The notes beneath the pieces were generated by a model. That model was not told where the DNA came from. It was given only the letters and a program-made list of their open reading frames with translations, and did not search any database. From positions 1 through 47,791 of the IMG/VR virus record IMGVR_UViG_3300036850_000027: a stretch of 47,791 nucleotides of DNA. The stretch is one strand, 5' to 3'. The stretch is from a virus. Both the position numbers and the translations under genes were made by a program. Positions 5,739 through 40,996 of this stretch are shown here, piece after piece. The stretch's first letter is position 1. Every line of letters begins with the position of its first letter.

Positions 5739-6370
5739 GGCTCGCTATTGGCGGCCCTACTCGCGACACCGTGCCGGCTTCCTTCGCCGTCGATCTCGCG
5801 CAGCTCTATGCGAAGACGAAAGCATGTGGCCTGTGGTCGACGGTGACCATCGGCTTTATCTCAGCAACCTATATCCATGCGGGCCGGGAATTTTTCTTGG
5901 AATCGACGCTGAAGCAAGGCGCGACGCATGTGCTCTGGCTCGATACCGATATGAGTTTCCCGCCGGAGACGGCGATCCGGTTAGCGCTGCACGATCAGCC
6001 GATCGTGGCGTGCAATTACACGACGCGTGACGGGTCCGGGCAGTTCACTGCGATGCGCAGAGAGACTGACGCGCATGTCCCGACACGCGTGGAGACACGG
6101 GCGGAATCGACCGGGCTCGAGGCCGTGGATGCCGTGGGCATGGGCGTGTTTCTGATGCGGGCGGATGTCGTGGCGACGATTCCACAGCCGTGGTTCGTCC
6201 ACGGACAGAACACGATCACGCGGCGGGACATCGGAGAAGACATCATGTTCTGTCGAGCCCTGCGCGCGGCGGGGCACACGATTTACATCGACCACGATCT
6301 ATCGAAAGAGATTGGGCACATTGGCCAGTACACCTACCGAGCGCCCCTTGAGACTCCGGTCGCCGTTTAA
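5735..6370 (+). CDS. GT-A-like glycosyltransferase
   Basis: This 211-residue protein resembles small GT2-like glycosyltransferases. It shows an N-terminal Rossmann-like start (MRLAIGGPTRD), a DxD-type metal and nucleotide-sugar motif VLWLDTDMSFPP (about 67-78), and an acidic IGEDIMFCRALRAAGHTIYID motif near 165-185 in the place of the catalytic base region. No membrane segment is visible. It overlaps the HNH stop by 4 nt and is followed by a small ORF and a methyltransferase. Placement within the head operon suggests it modifies a virion protein rather than DNA (inference). Confidence 0.8.
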   Translation: MRLAIGGPTRDTVPASFAVDLAQLYAKTKACGLWSTVTIGFISATYIHAGREFFLESTLKQGATHVLWLDTDMSFPPETAIRLALHDQPIVACNYTTRDGSGQFTAMRRETDAHVPTRVETRAESTGLEAVDAVGMGVFLMRADVVATIPQPWFVHGQNTITRRDIGEDIMFCRALRAAGHTIYIDHDLSKEIGHIGQYTYRAPLETPVAV

Positions 6371-6497
6371 CGGGTTGCCGTGGACCGTGCCGGCTGATGC
6401 GACGCCTGAACTGGTCGAGGAGTTGCTGAGGCGTGGCTTCACGCGGATCGAGGATGAGCCGGAGCCGGTGAAGGCCAAGGGGAAGCGCGATGTTTGA
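6348..6497 (+). CDS. small hypothetical protein
   Basis: An approximately 49-residue ORF fills the gap between the glycosyltransferase and the methyltransferase. No ATG is available. TTG at 6348 (overlapping the upstream gene) or TTG at 6375 are the likely starts. The conserved-looking core (VPADATPELVEELLRRGFT) resembles the short proteins often found in phage head operons whose C-terminus follows a beta-strand/helix pattern. It overlaps the next ATG by 8 nt. Function is unknown. Confidence 0.5.
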   Translation: MRLRSPFNGLPWTVPADATPELVEELLRRGFTRIEDEPEPVKAKGKRDV

Positions 6498-7143
6498 CGG
6501 CGTTCATGCCAGCGCAAGGATGCCTGAGTCCTTCGCGTACACCGCTCGAGTTGAGACGCCATCTGGCATCACCGTGAACGATCCGCTGACACAGGGCTGG
6601 TTTCATCATGGCGCCAAGATTCTGTCGTTGGTGGAGCAGCATCGGCCGGTGGTCTGTGTTGAGCTGGGCTCGTGGCTGGGCGCATCGGCGATTCCGGTGG
6701 CTCGATCCATTCGACGTTGGGGCGGGACGCTGACCTGTGTCGATACATGGTCTGGCGATGTGTACCGGGCGCCGAATGAACCGCAGGCCCCGCTGATGAT
6801 TCTTAGTTGCGCGCGGAACATGGTACAGGCCGGCGTGAGCGCCAATGTGCGGTTGATTCCATCGTCCACGCTCGATGCCGCGGCGTGGTGGGACCAGCCG
6901 ATTGATTACCTGTACGTCGATGCGGATCACAGCTACGAATCAGTCTTGGCCGATCTGCTCGCGTGGGTGCCGCATGTGAAGCCAGGCGGCCTCATTCTTG
7001 GCGACGATTACGGGAGCGATATGTACCCTGGCGTGCTGACAGCCTGGGACGAATTTGAGTGTCTGTATGGACTCAGGCTGACGCGGTATCAATCGAATCC
7101 TCCTGACACGCACGGCATCCAGTTGATTTATGGCACGGTCTAA
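6490..7143 (+). CDS. class I SAM-dependent methyltransferase (family 24-like)
   Basis: This 217-residue Rossmann-fold methyltransferase shows the SAM-binding glycine loop VELGSWLGASAIPVA (about 57-71), an acidic strand end LTCVDTWSGD (about 82-91), motif-like IDYLYVDADHSYESVLADL (about 138-156) and KPGGLILGDDYG (about 164-175). This layout is typical of Methyltransf_24/CmcI-type enzymes, which often act on sugars or small molecules and travel with glycosyltransferases. Together with the upstream glycosyltransferase it may decorate a virion glycan. It is not a DNA methyltransferase: no DPPY or NPPY motif is present. Confidence 0.82.
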   Translation: MFDGVHASARMPESFAYTARVETPSGITVNDPLTQGWFHHGAKILSLVEQHRPVVCVELGSWLGASAIPVARSIRRWGGTLTCVDTWSGDVYRAPNEPQAPLMILSCARNMVQAGVSANVRLIPSSTLDAAAWWDQPIDYLYVDADHSYESVLADLLAWVPHVKPGGLILGDDYGSDMYPGVLTAWDEFECLYGLRLTRYQSNPPDTHGIQLIYGTV

Positions 7144-7483
7144 ACCGAAGGCGCGACCGGCGGTGAAGAGGCGGCCTATGGCCACGGCGCGACCGCGGCC
7201 GCGGCCGAAGGCACCACCCACCAAGAAGGCACAAGTACAGAAAAGGACTCGACCGATGGCTGACGCGAAACCGAAGACCGTCTCCGTGACGGCGCTCAAG
7301 TACCACACGCTGAACGGCAAGGAATACAAGGAAGGCGCCACGTACGACGTCGATGAGACGCAGGTCGAGAACCTCGTCGCTCAGGGGATGGCGAAGCCGA
7401 CCGAACAGGTCGAACAGGAAGCCGCCGCAGCGAAGGCGGCAGCCAAAGCTGCAGCCAAGGTCATGACGAAGGGCGGCACGTAG
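7130..7483 (+). CDS. small head-operon protein with basic N-terminal extension
   Basis: This 117-residue protein has no named function. The first 42 residues are almost only Lys, Arg, Pro and Ala. The core (about 48-80) has a beta-rich pattern (VTALKYHTLNGKEYKEG) common in short head-region proteins. The C-terminus is an Ala/Lys helix. A strong AAGGA with 8-nt spacing precedes an internal ATG at 7256, so a 75-residue form may be the main or an additional product. The long form starts inside the methyltransferase gene. Confidence 0.65.
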   Translation: MARSKPKARPAVKRRPMATARPRPRPKAPPTKKAQVQKRTRPMADAKPKTVSVTALKYHTLNGKEYKEGATYDVDETQVENLVAQGMAKPTEQVEQEAAAAKAAAKAAAKVMTKGGT

Positions 7484-7487
7484 GGCG

Positions 7488-7709
7488 ATGACGAGCCGAG
7501 AGACCGCTGTCAAGCTGGCGCCTTGGCTGCAACATTCGCGCGAGTGTCCGCGCAGGACTGACACGTCTGAGGAGTGCGCGTGCGGGCTCAATGCGGTCCT
7601 CCGACGCGCGCGCGATGAGACGAGCGGATCCTCGTATATCCAGCTCACAGATAAGCGTATCGCGGAGTTGAAAGCATCGTGGACACGCGCATCGATCGGT
7701 AGAGACTGA
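7488..7709 (+). CDS. small protein with possible zinc site
   Basis: This 73-residue ORF is packed between the previous gene and the portal (its last base is the first base of the portal ATG). A HSRECPRRTDTSEECACG segment offers His and three Cys in a tight cluster, suggesting metal binding. The remainder is helical and charged. Function is unknown, and no similarity beyond other Cys-containing small phage proteins is apparent. Confidence 0.6.
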   Translation: MTSRETAVKLAPWLQHSRECPRRTDTSEECACGLNAVLRRARDETSGSSYIQLTDKRIAELKASWTRASIGRD

Positions 7710-9121
7710 TGCAGATCGGCCCGTTCACCATCGCGCGCACGAAGGCGCTCCAGCTTGCGCCGCTGAGCCAGAGCGGTAATGGCTGGTTTCCGTGGGGCAT
7801 CATCCGCGAATCGTTCACGGGCGCCTGGCAGCGGAACGTTGAGTTACGTCTTGACGATGTCATGACGAATCCGACGTTGTTCGCGTGCCAGACACTGATT
7901 GCGGCGGATGTCGCCAAGTTGTGCCTGCGGTTGGTCGAGCAAGACGAGCATGGGGTATGGACACCGATCGAATCGCCGGCTTTTTCGCCCGTGCTGCGTC
8001 GGCCGAACCATTACCAGATCGTCACCAAGTTTGTCGAGCAGTGGATTCAGTCGAAGCTCTCGCAGGGCAACACGTACGTCTTACTCCAACGCGACAACAG
8101 GCGCATCGTGCGTGCCATGTATGTACTGGACCCCAGTCGCGTGACACCGCTGGTTACTCCGGCCGGAGACGTGTACTACGAGCTGAAGCGCGATGACCTG
8201 TCTGGTATCACGCAAGCACGATTGGCGGTGGATGGTATCGCTCCGGATCGAGTACTGGTTCCAGCCAGCGAGATTATCCATGACCGTATGGTCTGCATCT
8301 TCCATCCCCTTATTGGGGTAACGCCGATTTACGCGTGCGGGCAGGCGGCGTCGCAAGGGCTGACCATCCAGAGCAATTCCAATAAGTTCTTCAGCAACGG
8401 CAGTACGCCCGGTGGTGTGCTGACGGCACCAGGCGCTATCGCGCAGGAGACGGCCGAACGGCTCAAGGCGTATTGGGAAGCGAATTACACCGGAGACAAC
8501 GTTGGGAAGATTGCCGTCCTCGGTGATGGCTTGAAATATGAGGCGATGCGCCAGACGGCGGTCGATTCGCAGCTGATCGATCAGTTGAAGTGGAGCGATG
8601 AGCGCATCTGCTCGACGCATCACGTCCCGCCGTACATGGTGGGCGTTGGTCCGCCGCCGCCGTATGCGAACGTCGAACCGCTGCTGCAAGCCTATTACGC
8701 GCAGTGCATTCAAAGCCTGCTGGTGAATTTCGAGAACTGTCTTGATCACGGGCTCGGCCTGGACGAAAAGATCGAGGGCAAGCAGTACGGGACCGAGTTC
8801 GATATTGATGATCTAATTTGGATGGATACCGCTACCCGTAGTGCTGCGGCCCAGACTGCGATCACCAGCGGGCTGTCGTTCAACGAAGTTCGGAAAAAAT
8901 ACTACGGTGTTGGCCCCGTCAAGGGCGGGGAGTCGCCGTTGTCACAGCAACAGAATTATTCAATCGCCGCGCTGGCGGAACGGGATGCCAATGATCCCTT
9001 TGCCAAGCCTGCGCCAACACTCCCGCCTGCTGATAACGACGACACCGCGGATGACGATGACGAGATGGCGGCCAGCGTCGGCGATCTGCTCCGGAAAGAG
9101 CTGGAGTTGACCGCGGCATGA
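7709..9121 (+). CDS. portal protein, HK97 family
   Basis: This 470-residue protein forms the dodecameric portal at the capsid vertex through which DNA passes. Typical HK97/SPP1-type features are visible: an early region with TNPTLFACQTLIAADVAKLCLRL (about 51-73, read in two parts), the LRRPNHYQ segment, the helical stem, and AYYAQCIQSLLVNFENCLDHGL before a C-terminal barrel and crown. The C-terminus is acidic (NDDTADDDDE). It lies about 2.6 kb after the capsid gene, not before it as in HK97, with glycan-related genes in between. Confidence 0.93.
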   Translation: MQIGPFTIARTKALQLAPLSQSGNGWFPWGIIRESFTGAWQRNVELRLDDVMTNPTLFACQTLIAADVAKLCLRLVEQDEHGVWTPIESPAFSPVLRRPNHYQIVTKFVEQWIQSKLSQGNTYVLLQRDNRRIVRAMYVLDPSRVTPLVTPAGDVYYELKRDDLSGITQARLAVDGIAPDRVLVPASEIIHDRMVCIFHPLIGVTPIYACGQAASQGLTIQSNSNKFFSNGSTPGGVLTAPGAIAQETAERLKAYWEANYTGDNVGKIAVLGDGLKYEAMRQTAVDSQLIDQLKWSDERICSTHHVPPYMVGVGPPPPYANVEPLLQAYYAQCIQSLLVNFENCLDHGLGLDEKIEGKQYGTEFDIDDLIWMDTATRSAAAQTAITSGLSFNEVRKKYYGVGPVKGGESPLSQQQNYSIAALAERDANDPFAKPAPTLPPADNDDTADDDDEMAASVGDLLRKELELTAA

Positions 9122-9849
9122 CCGGCAAGGACCTGGCGGTGGTCGTGCGCGGGATCGCGCCAGTCGTCCGCGAGTACGTGACGCTTGGTCTCAGCGGGTT
9201 GTCGGCGCGGTTGGACGCGCTGGAACAGAAGACGATCAGCGTGGGCCGCGATGGGCGCGACGGGGCGCAGGGTGAGAAAGGTCTCGACGGCCAGCCTGGG
9301 GCGCCTGGGGAACGTGGCGCGGAAGGGCCAGCCGGCCCGCCAGGACGCGACGGAGCGGCAGGCGAGCGCGGAGCTGATGGTCAGCCTGGGATCGCCGGCG
9401 AGAGAGGACCAGAGGGTCCGGAAGGCAAGCCTGGGCGAGACGGCCGCGACGGCTTACCGGGTGTGCCAGGGCTAGCGGGTGAAAAGGGCATGGACGGACG
9501 CCACGGAAACGACGGGGCTGATGGGCTGGGCTTTGACGATCTGGCCGTACTCCACGACGGGGAGCGCGCCTTTACGTTCCGGTTCACGAAAGGGGATCGG
9601 GTGAAAGAGTTCGCCTTCTCCATGCCGGTTGAGCTGTACCGCGGGGTGTACGTGGAAGGGAAGACGTACGACCGCGGCGATGGGGTGACATGGGCTGGGT
9701 CCGAATGGCACGCGAACGAGACCACGAACACCAAACCCGGTGACGGCTCGAAGGCATGGACGCTGAAGGTCAAGCGCGGACGTGACGGCAAGGATGGCCG
9801 TGATGCGCCACAGGCACCGCCAGTGGTGTCGATCGGAGTGCGGTCATGA
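9118..9849 (+). CDS. collagen-like protein with CBM5/12-like C-terminal module
   Basis: This 243-residue protein starts with a short helix/coiled coil (about 1-40), then about 30 Gly-X-Y triplets (about 42-138). A compact beta region follows, with a motif like the carbohydrate-binding CBM5/12 fold (YRGVYVEGKTYDRGD, then WAGSEWHAN). The tail is a second short GRDGKDGRD run. Collagen-like phage proteins form trimeric fibres, and the CBM-like module could bind surface glycans. Its place between portal and connector suggests a capsid- or neck-attached fibre. The start overlaps the portal stop by 4 nt. Confidence 0.85.
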   Translation: MTGKDLAVVVRGIAPVVREYVTLGLSGLSARLDALEQKTISVGRDGRDGAQGEKGLDGQPGAPGERGAEGPAGPPGRDGAAGERGADGQPGIAGERGPEGPEGKPGRDGRDGLPGVPGLAGEKGMDGRHGNDGADGLGFDDLAVLHDGERAFTFRFTKGDRVKEFAFSMPVELYRGVYVEGKTYDRGDGVTWAGSEWHANETTNTKPGDGSKAWTLKVKRGRDGKDGRDAPQAPPVVSIGVRS

Positions 9850-37169: not shown

Positions 37170-37763
37170 ATGTATCAGATTGATGGAACTCTGAAAGGGA
37201 AAGCGCCGTTTCTGTCGAACCGCTATACAGAGAAGGCGCGGTCAGGAAAACTGAGGCCAGAGGAATTGCTGGAAGAAGCGACACGGCGTGTGTACCGTGA
37301 CGAAGAGACGCAAGCTCTTATCTGGCCATCGTGGAACATCAAAAAGTGTTTCATGGATGGCGCGCGTTTGGGGGAAGTCAAGCACGGCAAGAAGTCCATC
37401 GTCCAATATCTGCAAGCTCTCATGATCGTGGACGGTGATGGCCAGTTCGGAAGAGTCGATTACGATGGGCTCCATGTGTGCATGGGCCGCATTCCTCCAA
37501 AGACTGGGCCGATGGTGAAGTTGTATCGACCGAAGCTTGATCCAGGATGGGAATTGTCGTTCCGGCTATTGATTGCTGACACAACGCTTCACCCTGACAC
37601 GATGAAGCAAATCATCAACTTCGCTGGACTGCTCGCCGGAATCGGCGCGTGGCGTCCAGAGTACGGGCGCTTTGTGTTGGAACGCTTCGTGGTGTCAGGT
37701 ATGGACGGAACCAAATCGACAGAGCCGGTCAAGGCAAAGGCGAAGCGGGCGGCGGTTGCCTAA
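37170..37763 (+). CDS. conserved phage protein of unknown function
   Basis: This 197-residue protein uses ATG 37170, with GGAAGG 6-9 bases upstream (ATG 37152 is the longer alternative). It starts with a beta strand and loop (YQIDGTLKGKAPFLSNRY), then IWPSWNIKKCFMDGARL, and ends with a conserved-looking LLAGIGAWRPEYGRFVLERF. The same arrangement of an upper strand, a W-x-x-x-x helix and a G-x-G-x-x-RPxYGRF motif is found across phages and in RAMP-like proteins. Function is not established. Confidence 0.7.
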   Translation: MYQIDGTLKGKAPFLSNRYTEKARSGKLRPEELLEEATRRVYRDEETQALIWPSWNIKKCFMDGARLGEVKHGKKSIVQYLQALMIVDGDGQFGRVDYDGLHVCMGRIPPKTGPMVKLYRPKLDPGWELSFRLLIADTTLHPDTMKQIINFAGLLAGIGAWRPEYGRFVLERFVVSGMDGTKSTEPVKAKAKRAAVA

Positions 37764-37768
37764 CTGAC

Positions 37769-38272
37769 ATGACGGACGAAGAGATCATCACGCAGATTAA
37801 AGCATCAGAGGGCTGGCCCGCTTTCACGATTCATCCGCACGACTTCGGGGGGCCAACGAAAGGCGGCGTGACGCTCGAGACGTTGCGGCTGTGGCGGCGC
37901 GATCCGCAAGTCACCGTCAACGAGCTGCGGAAGCTGACCGAAGAGGAAGCCGACGCCATCTATGCGGTGTTGTATCTCAAGCCGTTCGAGGCCATCCAGG
38001 ACGCTGAGCTCCGCCACTACCTCGTCGACCTCGGCGTGTTGCGTGGCCCGCGTAAGGCGGCACAGATGTTACAGGACATCGTCGGCGCAGAGTCTGACGG
38101 CTGGATCGGCCCGAAGACGCTGGCGGCGATGTCGCATTTCGAGCCGCACGATCTGCTCGTTATGCTGATCGGGGCGCGCTTCGCCCACATTGCCCAGCGG
38201 GTACGGGACGATCCGACACAGCGACGGTGGGAGCCTGGCTGGCGGGCACGGAATCGGGAGTTTCTGACGTGA
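37769..38272 (+). CDS. GH108 endolysin
   Basis: This 167-residue muramidase has E14 (SEGWPA) as the likely catalytic Glu, then the signature HPHDFGGPTKGGVTLETL. The C-terminal half holds a PG_binding_3-like motif (GAESDGWIGPKTLAAM). It degrades peptidoglycan at lysis. No signal peptide is seen, so it relies on a holin. It opens the lysis cassette. Confidence 0.92.
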   Translation: MTDEEIITQIKASEGWPAFTIHPHDFGGPTKGGVTLETLRLWRRDPQVTVNELRKLTEEEADAIYAVLYLKPFEAIQDAELRHYLVDLGVLRGPRKAAQMLQDIVGAESDGWIGPKTLAAMSHFEPHDLLVMLIGARFAHIAQRVRDDPTQRRWEPGWRARNREFLT

Positions 38273-38493
38273 CAGGCGTGGATCGGATGGAGGCCCTTGG
38301 GCGATCTGGGATCACGGTTTCTGTGTGTTGCGGGCCGTGTGGATCAAATGCGTTCGCGTGGACAGTTCAGGTACTGACGCGAGATGGTCAGGAATTTGAG
38401 CGTCCCTTTGCGGCGAAGAGTTTTGACCATGCGATTGATATTGTTGAAATTGAAATAGCCCAGCGCGGATGGGGGCCGCAAAGCCATGGCTGA
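38269..38493 (+). CDS. small hypothetical protein
   Basis: This 74-residue ORF starts at GTG 38269, overlapping the endolysin stop; ATG 38287 with GGA upstream is an alternative. It is beta-rich (ITVSVCCGPCGSNAFAWTVQV, read in part) with a Cys pair, then a helix (AKSFDHAIDIVEIEIAQ). Function is unknown. Confidence 0.6.
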   Translation: MTGVDRMEALGRSGITVSVCCGPCGSNAFAWTVQVLTRDGQEFERPFAAKSFDHAIDIVEIEIAQRGWGPQSHG

Positions 38494-38770: not shown

Positions 38771-38830
38771 GTCTTCGTGCTTGTAAATGGCTGATTCTGT
38801 GAGACTATTTGCGGAGAGGGAAGACGAGTC

Positions 38831-38866
38831 GGCCCCCCGGCGCTGTGTGGCAGCCACCGGGAGGCC
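38831..38866 (+). other. long imperfect hairpin in a 206-bp gap
   Basis: GGCCCCCCGG (38831-38840) pairs with CCGGGAGGCC (38857-38866) with one mismatch, and GCTG/CAGC (38842-38845, 38851-38854) closes an inner stem around a 5-base loop. No T-run follows. A weak promoter-like pair, TTGTAA and GACTAT, lies about 25-50 bases upstream (near 38781-38808). The hairpin may control read-through to the holin genes. Confidence 0.5.
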
Positions 38867-38976
38867 TGAGCCGAAACCGGCACCGTGGCAAGCGGCGCCT
38901 TTTCCGGCCTGACAGGAGCGTACAACGAAATCGCGTGGCCAACCGTACACGGCCACGAGACAGGACGTGCCGGGGC

Positions 38977-39342
38977 ATGACCTGGCCCCAGTGGTTTGAC
39001 ATGCTTTTCAAGCTCATCACGGTCATCGTGATGGGGTACCTCTTTTTTTTCCGCACCGGACATCGCCTCGGTGTACGTGACACGACTGTGGACATCAAGA
39101 TCGCTGAAATCGACCGCTTTGACGCGAAGCTCGCTGAAATCCGGAAACTGGTCGCGGAGGCCGGCAAGCGGATGTCCGACAAGTTATCGAGCTTGCAGGG
39201 TATCTCTGGATCCATTGAGCTGGTCGTCCGAGAGATGACCTCCATGCAGCGCGAAAACGAGAAGATCAGCGACATGCTCGGCAACATGCGGGAACGGATC
39301 GCGAAGTGCGAGGCGCGGCAGTGGCCACAGGAACAACGATGA
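38977..39342 (+). CDS. membrane-anchored coiled-coil protein (i-spanin- or holin-like)
   Basis: This 121-residue protein has one N-terminal membrane helix (about 8-26, LFKLITVIVMGYLFFF) and a long charged coiled coil after it (about 40-110, IAEIDRFDAKLAEIRKLVAEA in part). This is the layout of inner-membrane spanins, though no nested o-spanin is visible. The C-terminus contains one Cys. The ATG chosen follows a GGGGC tract. Confidence 0.65.
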   Translation: MTWPQWFDMLFKLITVIVMGYLFFFRTGHRLGVRDTTVDIKIAEIDRFDAKLAEIRKLVAEAGKRMSDKLSSLQGISGSIELVVREMTSMQRENEKISDMLGNMRERIAKCEARQWPQEQR

Positions 39343-39369
39343 GCCGAGGCGTCTTGTGGCGAGCCATTG

Positions 39370-39573
39370 ATGCGGGTCACCATGACGATCCTTGAAGCGG
39401 CAAAATGGATTCAAGATGTCGGTGTGTACGGCATCCTTATCCTCATTATCTATGGTGGGTGGAAACAGTGGTGGGTGTTCGGATGGCAATATACAGACAA
39501 AGCTAAAGAGTGTGAGTCGTGGAAAACGATCGCACTGAAGGGCCTCTTTGTGGCGGAACGGATTGTGACATGA
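39370..39573 (+). CDS. small single-pass membrane protein, holin-like
   Basis: This protein of about 67 residues (ATG 39370 or 39382) has a hydrophobic helix VYGILILIIYGGW followed by KQWWVFGWQYTDKAKECESW. That second pattern (WWV-G-x-x-Y then a charged helix with W) is common in short phage proteins near holins. It may be an accessory holin or a membrane tether. Confidence 0.62.
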   Translation: MRVTMTILEAAKWIQDVGVYGILILIIYGGWKQWWVFGWQYTDKAKECESWKTIALKGLFVAERIVT

Positions 39574-39734
39574 AGAAAGCCTTAAATTGGTTCGGGCGTA
39601 TGTGGCGCTTTATTTTCAGCCTCGGGCACGTGGCCGTGGTCAGCGATGCCGAGCTTGAGGACGCAGAATTACGCTTGCGCGGCCTCGAAGCACGGGTCGC
39701 TGCCAGCAGATATCGGTCCAGGCCAGGTCAGTAA
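39570..39734 (+). CDS. small amphipathic protein of the lysis cassette
   Basis: This 54-residue ORF has ATG 39570 overlapping the previous stop. The N-terminal half is aromatic and weakly hydrophobic (WFGRMWRFIFSLGHVAVV), enough for membrane association. The C-terminal half is a charged helix (AELEDAELRLRGLEARVAAS). It shares a base with the next start. Function is unknown. Confidence 0.58.
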   Translation: MKKALNWFGRMWRFIFSLGHVAVVSDAELEDAELRLRGLEARVAASRYRSRPGQ

Positions 39735-40477
39735 TGAGCGTGCGCGATATATTATGGATACAATTAGTTATTTCGTGTGTGGGCTTATGCGTGAGCGCAT
39801 GGACATTACGAGATGCGTGGCATAACCACCTCGCATGTAAAGCCGATCCAGCACACTCAGGTGAGCGGATTGTCGCGCGGGGCGACCTGATCGGAGAGGC
39901 AGGAAGGGTCATTGCACATGCATTCATTGTGATTTTATCAACGATCGTCCTGATGGCCGTGCTGAGTAATCGCTCGACGTTGGTCTTATTGAGAATTAGT
40001 GTCTTGATCGGGATTACGACGGTGTTGGCCGTGAATTCTATTAATAGCTTACTGACACGTTGGAAGCTCGCGAGATTCTTCCAAGCCATGGATCACATCG
40101 AGGCGGTTCAACGTGTCGTATGGGCAACTGTCGCTGAATTGATCGTCAGCAATGATGCAGCCGGCATTATTCGCGACGCCTCCGCGCCAGCCGGAAAGAT
40201 GTTCGGTTATGCACATGCGGATTTGATCGGTCGCCATGTGGATGATTTAGTTCCGCATGATCTCAGAACGACGCATGCAGCGCATCGCGCTGACTATGCG
40301 ATGCATCCGAGATTGCGACCGATGGGGCAAGAAGGGTCGACGATCCGTGGCCGCCGGCGCAATGGCACCACGTTTCCAGTCGCGATCCAGTTGTGTCCTG
40401 CGACGATTCGTGGTGAATCATGCGTGCTGGCAATCATCGCAGACATGACGAAATGGGTGGATAACGGTGTCAAATAA
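39734..40477 (+). CDS. membrane protein with PAS sensor domain
   Basis: This 247-residue protein has three membrane helices (about 6-25, 59-77 and 82-100). A PAS domain follows (about 130-243), with the usual pattern GIIRDASAPAGKMFGYAHAD, then LIGRHVDDLVP, then RGRRRNGTTFPVAIQL and LAIIADMTKW. No kinase, GGDEF, EAL or DNA-binding output is attached. It is locked in the lysis cassette by a TAATG overlap. A sensory role, for example sensing redox or ligand to time lysis, is inferred from the fold and the neighbourhood only. Its DNA is richer in A/T than flanking genes. Confidence 0.85.
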   Translation: MSVRDILWIQLVISCVGLCVSAWTLRDAWHNHLACKADPAHSGERIVARGDLIGEAGRVIAHAFIVILSTIVLMAVLSNRSTLVLLRISVLIGITTVLAVNSINSLLTRWKLARFFQAMDHIEAVQRVVWATVAELIVSNDAAGIIRDASAPAGKMFGYAHADLIGRHVDDLVPHDLRTTHAAHRADYAMHPRLRPMGQEGSTIRGRRRNGTTFPVAIQLCPATIRGESCVLAIIADMTKWVDNGVK

Positions 40478-40502: not shown

Positions 40503-40817
40503 TTGAATCCCTTACTGATCGAAGCCACGGCGTCCATTCTCCGGCATGTCTTGACGAGCGGTGCGGTGTATCTCGTGGCGCGTGGCATCTGGACGCCAGA
40601 GGAAGCCAGCACGTACGCAGCAGCTGCCGCGATGGGTCTCATTGGGATCGGCTGGTCGCTGTACCAAAAGCATGAGGCTCGGATCAAATTGGTTACGGCG
40701 CTGGCGATGCCGATCGGGACGACGGAAGAGACCTTGGAGAAGACGATCGCGCAGGGCGAGCAGGCAGCCGTGAGCACGCCGAAGACGGAGATCCCGTTTC
40801 GCGAGGCCAAGCCGTGA
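40503..40817 (+). CDS. holin
   Basis: This 104-residue protein starts at TTG, 5-8 bases after AGGAG. It has two hydrophobic helices (HVLTSGAVYLVARGIW and ASTYAAAAAMGLIGIGW) and a KHEARIKLVTALAMP end, matching a holin family found beside such endolysins. It should make the hole that frees the endolysin. It overlaps the next GTG by 4 nt. Confidence 0.82.
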   Translation: MNPLLIEATASILRHVLTSGAVYLVARGIWTPEEASTYAAAAAMGLIGIGWSLYQKHEARIKLVTALAMPIGTTEETLEKTIAQGEQAAVSTPKTEIPFREAKP

Positions 40818-40996
40818 CGATATTGTTGAGGCTCGCGGAAGTGGCCCGCCGGCTGGGCGTTGATGTGCAGACCGTGCGTCGGTACATCGAAAAGGGAGCC
40901 TTACCAGCAGTCAAGCTGCCCTCAGGACATTGGCGCGTGCGCGAGGATGCCGTAAAGGCTTGTCTGAGCGAGCGCCCTGCCGATCGCTCCACGTAG
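40814..40996 (+). CDS. excisionase/MerR-type HTH protein
   Basis: This 60-residue protein is one winged helix: LAEVARRLGVDVQTVRRYIEKGALPAVKLP, then GHWRVREDAVKACL (read in parts). It starts at GTG overlapping the holin stop. The direct repeat CTATCAAAC follows immediately downstream, so this protein may bind there, for example to control the late fibre genes. Confidence 0.75.
   Translation: MTILLRLAEVARRLGVDVQTVRRYIEKGALPAVKLPSGHWRVREDAVKACLSERPADRST

Follow-up and report, generated by a model that had tools for sequence, protein, structure and literature searches.

Why would a phage tether a PAS domain to the membrane, without any output domain, and place its gene among the genes for host lysis? 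This question is raised by a gene at positions 39734 to 40477 (plus strand) of the window, i.e., the whole stretch of 47,791 bases analyzed here, a phage record that also carries terminase, portal, and major head genes.

Architecture and genomic context of the gene

The first-pass annotation of this gene was correct in its coordinates, reading frame, and product length (247 amino acids), and its description of the product as three transmembrane (TM) helices plus a full PAS domain, with no output domain, was upheld by hydropathy, AlphaFold2, Pfam, NCBIfam, and Foldseek, as well as by matching PDB sequences. The hydropathy profile contains three peaks (residues 6, 59, and 82). The AlphaFold2 model, based on an alignment of window- and locus-derived proteins, consists of helices at residues 3 to 37, 42 to 78, and 82 to 132 and a PAS fold at residues 135 to 237, with pLDDT values of 93 to 97 for the PAS domain and a mean of 86 for the whole protein. 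On the basis of hydropathy, the modeled helices, and similarity to the three-TM part of a protein encoded on another phage contig (L174; see below), residues 3 to 132 (positions 39740 to 40129, plus strand) were assigned to a three-helix membrane anchor, of which the third helix (82 to 132) runs unbroken into the PAS linker in the model. The PAS domain itself occupies residues 133 to 240 (positions 40130 to 40453, plus strand) and ends 7 residues ahead of the stop codon. From the positive-inside rule and the charges of the segment following the third TM helix (RWKLAR), the anchor is predicted to have an N-out, C-in topology, which would place the PAS domain in the cytoplasm.

Membership of the PAS domain superfamily, with one complete domain at the C terminus, was confirmed at the level of profiles and predicted fold. 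Both PAS_9 (PF13426; 3.3e-9; 37 bits versus a curated cutoff of 27) and PAS (PF00989; 1.4e-7; 32 bits versus a curated cutoff of 22.6) were found with Pfam, and the NCBIfam model TIGR00229 matched above its curated cutoff (1.2e-12). The closest PDB sequence was FixL (3e-10), and a Foldseek search with the PAS model also returned FixL as the top match (5e-11), followed by FG214 and DosP, all of which are heme-PAS proteins. Searches of the chain with Pfam and NCBIfam revealed only the PAS domain and no HisKA/HATPase, GGDEF, or HTH output domain, while the three-TM part yielded no holin-family match in Pfam, PHROG, or NCBIfam.

The location inside a lysis cassette, likewise proposed earlier, was borne out by the flanking genes. 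Upstream lies an endolysin gene (37649 to 38272, plus strand; likely start at an internal ATG at 37769) encoding a glycosyl hydrolase 108 (GH108) domain and PG_binding_3 (Pfam PF05838, 1.3e-11, and PF09374, 4e-5; PHROG 315, endolysin, 3e-23), and downstream lies a holin gene of the Pam3 gp28 family (40503 to 40817, plus strand; PF23987; Pfam, 5.4e-13), which has a TTG start after a strong SD (AAGGAGA). Between the endolysin gene and the PAS gene, on the same strand, are two small uncharacterized open reading frames (ORFs), followed by an ORF at 38809 to 39342 (plus strand; likely start, ATG at 38977), the product of which has one TM helix (hydropathy peak at residue 63) and then a long coiled-coil-like stretch. 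This product had no family match in Pfam or PHROG, and its layout resembles that of TM/coiled-coil genes adjoining PAS genes in other phages; XhlA was considered for these neighbors, with no profile in its favor. Next come a gene for a small single-TM protein with the motif WVFGWQY...(9)...WK (39367 to 39573, plus strand) and a 54-amino-acid ORF that overlaps both of its neighbors (39570 to 39734, plus strand). The overlap of the PAS gene with its neighbors that had been reported thus holds on the upstream side, where it shares 1 nucleotide with the 54-amino-acid ORF (TAATG), but not on the downstream side, where 25 nucleotides separate it from the holin gene. Similarly, of the holin- and spanin-like neighbors that had been named, the holin was supported by its Pfam match, whereas a spanin assignment was without profile support in Pfam and PHROG.

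Several other genes of the window deserve mention. An 88-amino-acid uncharacterized protein is encoded directly after the endolysin (38227 to 38493, plus strand) and has strong relatives (8e-29 and 1e-23) in terminase-related contigs (L045/L120 and L080), which indicates that its gene is better conserved than the surrounding lysis genes. The end of the holin gene is overlapped by 4 nucleotides by an ORF (40814 to 40996, plus strand) for a 60-amino-acid HTH_17/MerR-like, excisionase-type DNA-binding protein (1e-13), an unusual location for such a gene; an analogous 62-amino-acid HTH-like ORF precedes a g41153-like gene in L024. Finally, an ORF directly after the portal gene (9118 to 9849, plus strand) matched a portal C-terminal family (phrog_1289), and residues 40 to 140 of its product gave many collagen-like/tail-fiber matches.

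Related PAS proteins and membrane modules in other phages

A PAS sensor without output had been called unusual for a phage. This holds for cultured phages, with none in INPHARED or PHROGs, but not for metagenomic phages, in which such proteins form a recurring family. A scan of 2.9 million viral contigs in IMG/VR with a DNA pattern for FGYxxxE..G-x7-PxxxRxxH gave 27 stretches, and all but four of these were short PAS ORFs without a recognizable output domain (the exceptions were two large bacterial-type sensors, one false match, and one duplicate), so that about 23 further proteins of this kind were found in phage contigs. Those tested matched neither a PHROG nor an INPHARED record. Most are soluble; one has a single TM helix (L157), another has two if the longer ORF is taken (L160), and, besides the window, three-TM PAS fusions occur in L150 (the L125/L174 protein) and L143/L169, the latter (6351 to 7703, minus strand) being a 451-amino-acid phage protein in which three TM helices and a PAS domain are followed by a charged, coiled-coil-like tail of about 200 residues. 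All of these relatives come from metagenomic contigs, and their gene calls are simple ORF picks and their TM calls hydropathy based. The large multidomain sensors of bacterial type (L138/L149) were set aside, L161, L189 to L193, L196, and L197 were false matches of the two IMG/VR motif scans (the second is described below), and L135, the sole genome_contigs match, was a chance match within an amidohydrolase-like reading frame. Single-sequence IMG/VR scans with P0001 and with the holin yielded no relatives, nor did tblastn in INPHARED, where weak matches of the N terminus to Microbacterium phages proved to be antisense over unrelated short genes.

A small TM gene lies directly beside the PAS gene in 16 of 22 loci, compared with 34% for the other genes of those loci (P = 2e-4), a rough figure given that not every locus is independent and that a simple ORF caller was used. 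The PAS-gene neighbors in L142/L168, L152/L176, L136/L163, L187, and L195 resemble a single family, in which a TM helix and a coiled-coil-like stretch are followed by a small soluble part bearing SPHTPELD or RAxSE motifs; for one of them, a comparison with PHROGs gave no clear match. Proximity to lysis genes, the other expectation for homologues, was seen in L172, L167, L174, G070, and G082, with endolysins 0 to 4 kb away: a GH19 endolysin gene adjoins the PAS gene in L172 and lies at 0.1 kb in G070, and an M15 peptidase gene lies at 3.3 kb in G082. Amidase_2 was found at 1.3 kb in G053 and 3.9 kb in G061, and the only GH108 match in G069 lies 28 kb from the PAS gene. The endolysins that were identified lay usually at most 4 kb from the PAS gene. 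With the four families tried, most PAS-bearing contigs had no endolysin close by; linkage to lysis genes is shown in a minority of contigs and suggested for the rest.

The small WVFGWQY gene just upstream in the window offers a second line of comparison. It has relatives in 12 IMG/VR loci, and in most of the loci read, a three-TM protein of about 130 to 180 amino acids without a PAS domain is encoded nearby. In L122, L124, and L126, the pair of WVFGWQY and PAS-less three-TM genes lies ahead of matches to CHAP, M23, and peptidoglycan-binding domains (CHAP and peptidoglycan binding being below the Pfam cutoffs). In a 205-kb phage contig (L125/L174), the three-TM protein encoded after the WVFGWQY gene is fused to a PAS domain, just as in the window, and an Amidase_2 gene lies about 4 kb away. 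This protein can be aligned with that of the window over both anchor and PAS domain (27% identity over 176 amino acids; 8e-12 in a single comparison), and its AlphaFold2 model likewise consists of three helices plus a PAS domain. Against shuffles that preserve the hydrophobicity profile, the similarity of the three-TM anchors reached z scores of 6.1 (window and L174), 7.9 (L174 and L169), and 6.8 (L174 and L124); for several pairs not involving L174, it was weak (z, 0 to 4). In the same 205-kb contig (IMGVR_UViG_3300018962_000001), one WVFGWQY gene is flanked by genes for two different three-TM proteins, of which only the second is PAS fused.

Candidate ligand and history of the PAS domain

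Sequence, fold, and literature place the window PAS domain in the FixL/DosP/FG214 group of heme-PAS domains, and heme binding is predicted from this family membership and from two residues. His181 (codon at 40274 to 40276, plus strand) aligns with His200 of FixL and His156 of FG214, the position of the proximal heme histidine on the F helix, and Met197 (codon at 40322 to 40324, plus strand) aligns with Met172 of FG214. In FG214, a protein of Fimbriimonas ginsengisoli (PDB 10jx), heme is held proximally by His156; on the distal side, His175 is the ligand in the ferric form, and Met172 can serve instead, as observed in the reduced crystal (preprint PMC13060918). The window protein shares with it the PAS subfamily motif R..H..HR..Y..PR.R.MG, and a sister phage PAS protein (L167) has FG214 as its best match among solved structures (3e-22). 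However, FG214 is soluble and binds DNA as an HTH-PAS protein, whereas the phage protein is membrane anchored, has no HTH, and has a glutamate at the His175 site. FixL and DosP, both oxygen sensors, have the heme-PAS fold and the proximal histidine in common with the window protein, for which heme is a prediction, but they carry kinase or phosphodiesterase outputs, while the window protein has none. Since neither His175 nor Arg220 of FixL (a serine in the window) is conserved, the ligand chemistry is presumably closer to a DosP-like His-Met pair.

The histidine was required by the first motif pattern, and its conservation among those matches is thus a matter of selection. A second IMG/VR pattern, in which the methionine was required and the histidine was not, produced four further true PAS domains, all four with the histidine. 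Conversely, the methionine, not required by the first pattern, is present in 18 of the 23 distinct PAS domains found with it, although the fused or linked PAS domains of L174, L178, and L181 are without it. The R..H motif was also found in PAS domains of unassigned ligand.

In a maximum-likelihood tree of PAS domains, that of the window groups with soluble phage PAS proteins (L179, L180, and L185; 98/96), while the other three-TM fusions, L174 and L169, both long branches, fall on the same side as FixL of a split with moderate support (88/91). Because the tree separates these PAS domains although the anchors are related, it suggests that a PAS domain was joined to, or exchanged on, a three-TM anchor more than once; if the tree is right, such repeated coupling would argue that sensor and membrane module are functionally linked. 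The GC content of the PAS gene is 52%, versus 61% for the window, and its GC3 is 0.56, versus 0.73 to 0.77 in the endolysin and holin genes. The stretch from 39367 to 39734 is also low in GC (53%), and from this shared property, the genes there may have been acquired together with the PAS gene. A search of 48 terminase-related records, many of which are fragments, revealed no relative of the PAS gene, and where their lysis regions are visible, they differ from that of the window.

Proposed role in lysis

What, then, might the protein do? Our best reading remains the one first proposed, namely, that lysis is gated by a ligand or redox signal, for which the heme-ligand residues of FixL/FG214 type now argue. 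We give about an even chance to the specific form in which the protein is an accessory of the lysis cassette, a cytoplasmic heme-PAS sensor of redox state or gas that uses its membrane anchor to modulate lysis proteins; we infer the binding of heme, the topology, the contact with a partner, and the effect on timing. In this scheme, a holin-like anchor of three helices (N-out, C-in) would bear a single cytoplasmic heme-PAS domain at its C terminus, with His181 holding the heme and Met197 serving as a displaceable sixth ligand. A change in heme redox state, or the binding of O2, NO, or CO, would shift the PAS domain, and this movement would travel along the continuous helix (82 to 132) to the membrane helices. 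Lacking a kinase or DNA-binding output, the protein would signal by touching its membrane partners directly, possibly the WVFGWQY protein, the adjacent Pam3-type holin, or both. Lysis would then be held back or triggered according to the oxygen or redox state of the host; the sign could be either. Given that a separate holin is present in the window, the three-TM part need not be a holin itself.

PAS domains frequently act as dimerization modules. This general role favors a reading in which the domain carries no heme and serves as a scaffold (or binds another small molecule) that oligomerizes the anchor, with the three-TM protein acting as a holin or antiholin with a fixed clock, and so do the lack of the methionine in L174, L178, and L181 and the existence of three-TM homologues without any PAS domain. 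A pure scaffold would, however, need neither a proximal histidine that is invariant even where unselected nor a methionine kept in 18 of 23 domains, and the closest structures are heme-PAS domains; we regard this reading as rather unlikely, although it is the most serious competitor to a heme-based sensor. We consider it less probable still that the target lies in the host, where the protein might titrate or block a FixL-like PAS histidine kinase by heterodimerization in the membrane or might cause superinfection exclusion. The closest nonphage relatives of the domain are indeed bacterial sensor proteins, the protein is membrane anchored and without output, and accessory genes are often sited near lysis genes. 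Set against this are the linkage, in distinct phages, with small TM genes and with such endolysins as were found, the apparently repeated coupling to the same three-TM anchor, and the identity of the domain to the PAS domains of FixL and FG214 (about 28 to 34%), which is low for mimicry. Very improbable, finally, is a recent moron, i.e., a fragment of a bacterial membrane-PAS protein without function in the phage: the low GC and GC3 of the gene and its absence from the terminase relatives would fit, but the ORF is intact and overlaps its upstream neighbor, the ligand residues are kept, and the 205-kb contig repeats both the architecture and the neighboring partner gene.

The timing of lysis is among the classical traits of phages, and the main known case in which it responds to the environment is lysis inhibition driven by superinfection. 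We know of no earlier redox or gas input to lysis, and a heme-PAS domain wired to membrane proteins of a lysis cassette would, if the heme-sensor reading is true, be the first; the lysis clock would then differ with and without oxygen, and the difference would hinge on one histidine and one methionine. In T4, RI detects superinfection on the periplasmic side and lacks a PAS domain. The window sensor, by contrast, is predicted to be cytoplasmic and of the heme-PAS type. What it would share with lysis inhibition, as brought about by the RI antiholin of T4 or in ICP1 (PMC7182436), is a phage membrane system that shifts lysis timing on an environmental signal. With class I holins of the lambda S105 type and the Pam3 gp28 holin family, the protein shares a location in the lysis cassette and would share three TM helices in an N-out, C-in topology, as predicted, but it is 247 amino acids long and has a folded PAS domain in place of a short charged tail. 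Searches of open-access full texts for PAS domains in connection with lysis cassettes, holins, or genomes of phages turned up no account of such genes; the phage PAS regulator that we did meet there, VqmA of vibriophage VP882 (PMC8284805), also ties an outside signal to a lytic decision but is a soluble transcription factor whose output is DNA binding, responds to a quorum signal, and is neither membrane bound nor encoded in a lysis cassette.

More broadly, these comparisons provide a label for a recurrent, unannotated family of phage genes and their small membrane partners, and the recurrence near lysis genes is a hint that lysis may, in some phages, be timed according to the redox state of the host. 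We tentatively propose, with less confidence than for the window protein itself, a class of phages in which heme-PAS sensors of gas or redox state, soluble or on holin-like anchors, gate lysis at the membrane without a kinase or transcriptional output.

A search of BFVD gave fold matches to two proteins of Cellulophaga phages, R9ZZL0 (phi19:1) and S0A2B2 (phi18:3), which we assigned, by protein length only, to gp108 of phi19:1 (L200, 6203 to 6925) and gp090 of phi18:3 (L199, 39102 to 39620). Both have a hydrophobic N-terminal part with a single TM helix and no Pfam PAS match, and they match two related uncharacterized PHROGs (31932 and 10199). The gene for gp108 lies near that for a predicted lysozyme (gp113), and the gene for gp090 lies near that for a GH108 endolysin (gp092). 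A relationship to the window PAS family, suggested by fold only, is a lead, and the domain may face the periplasm in these proteins.
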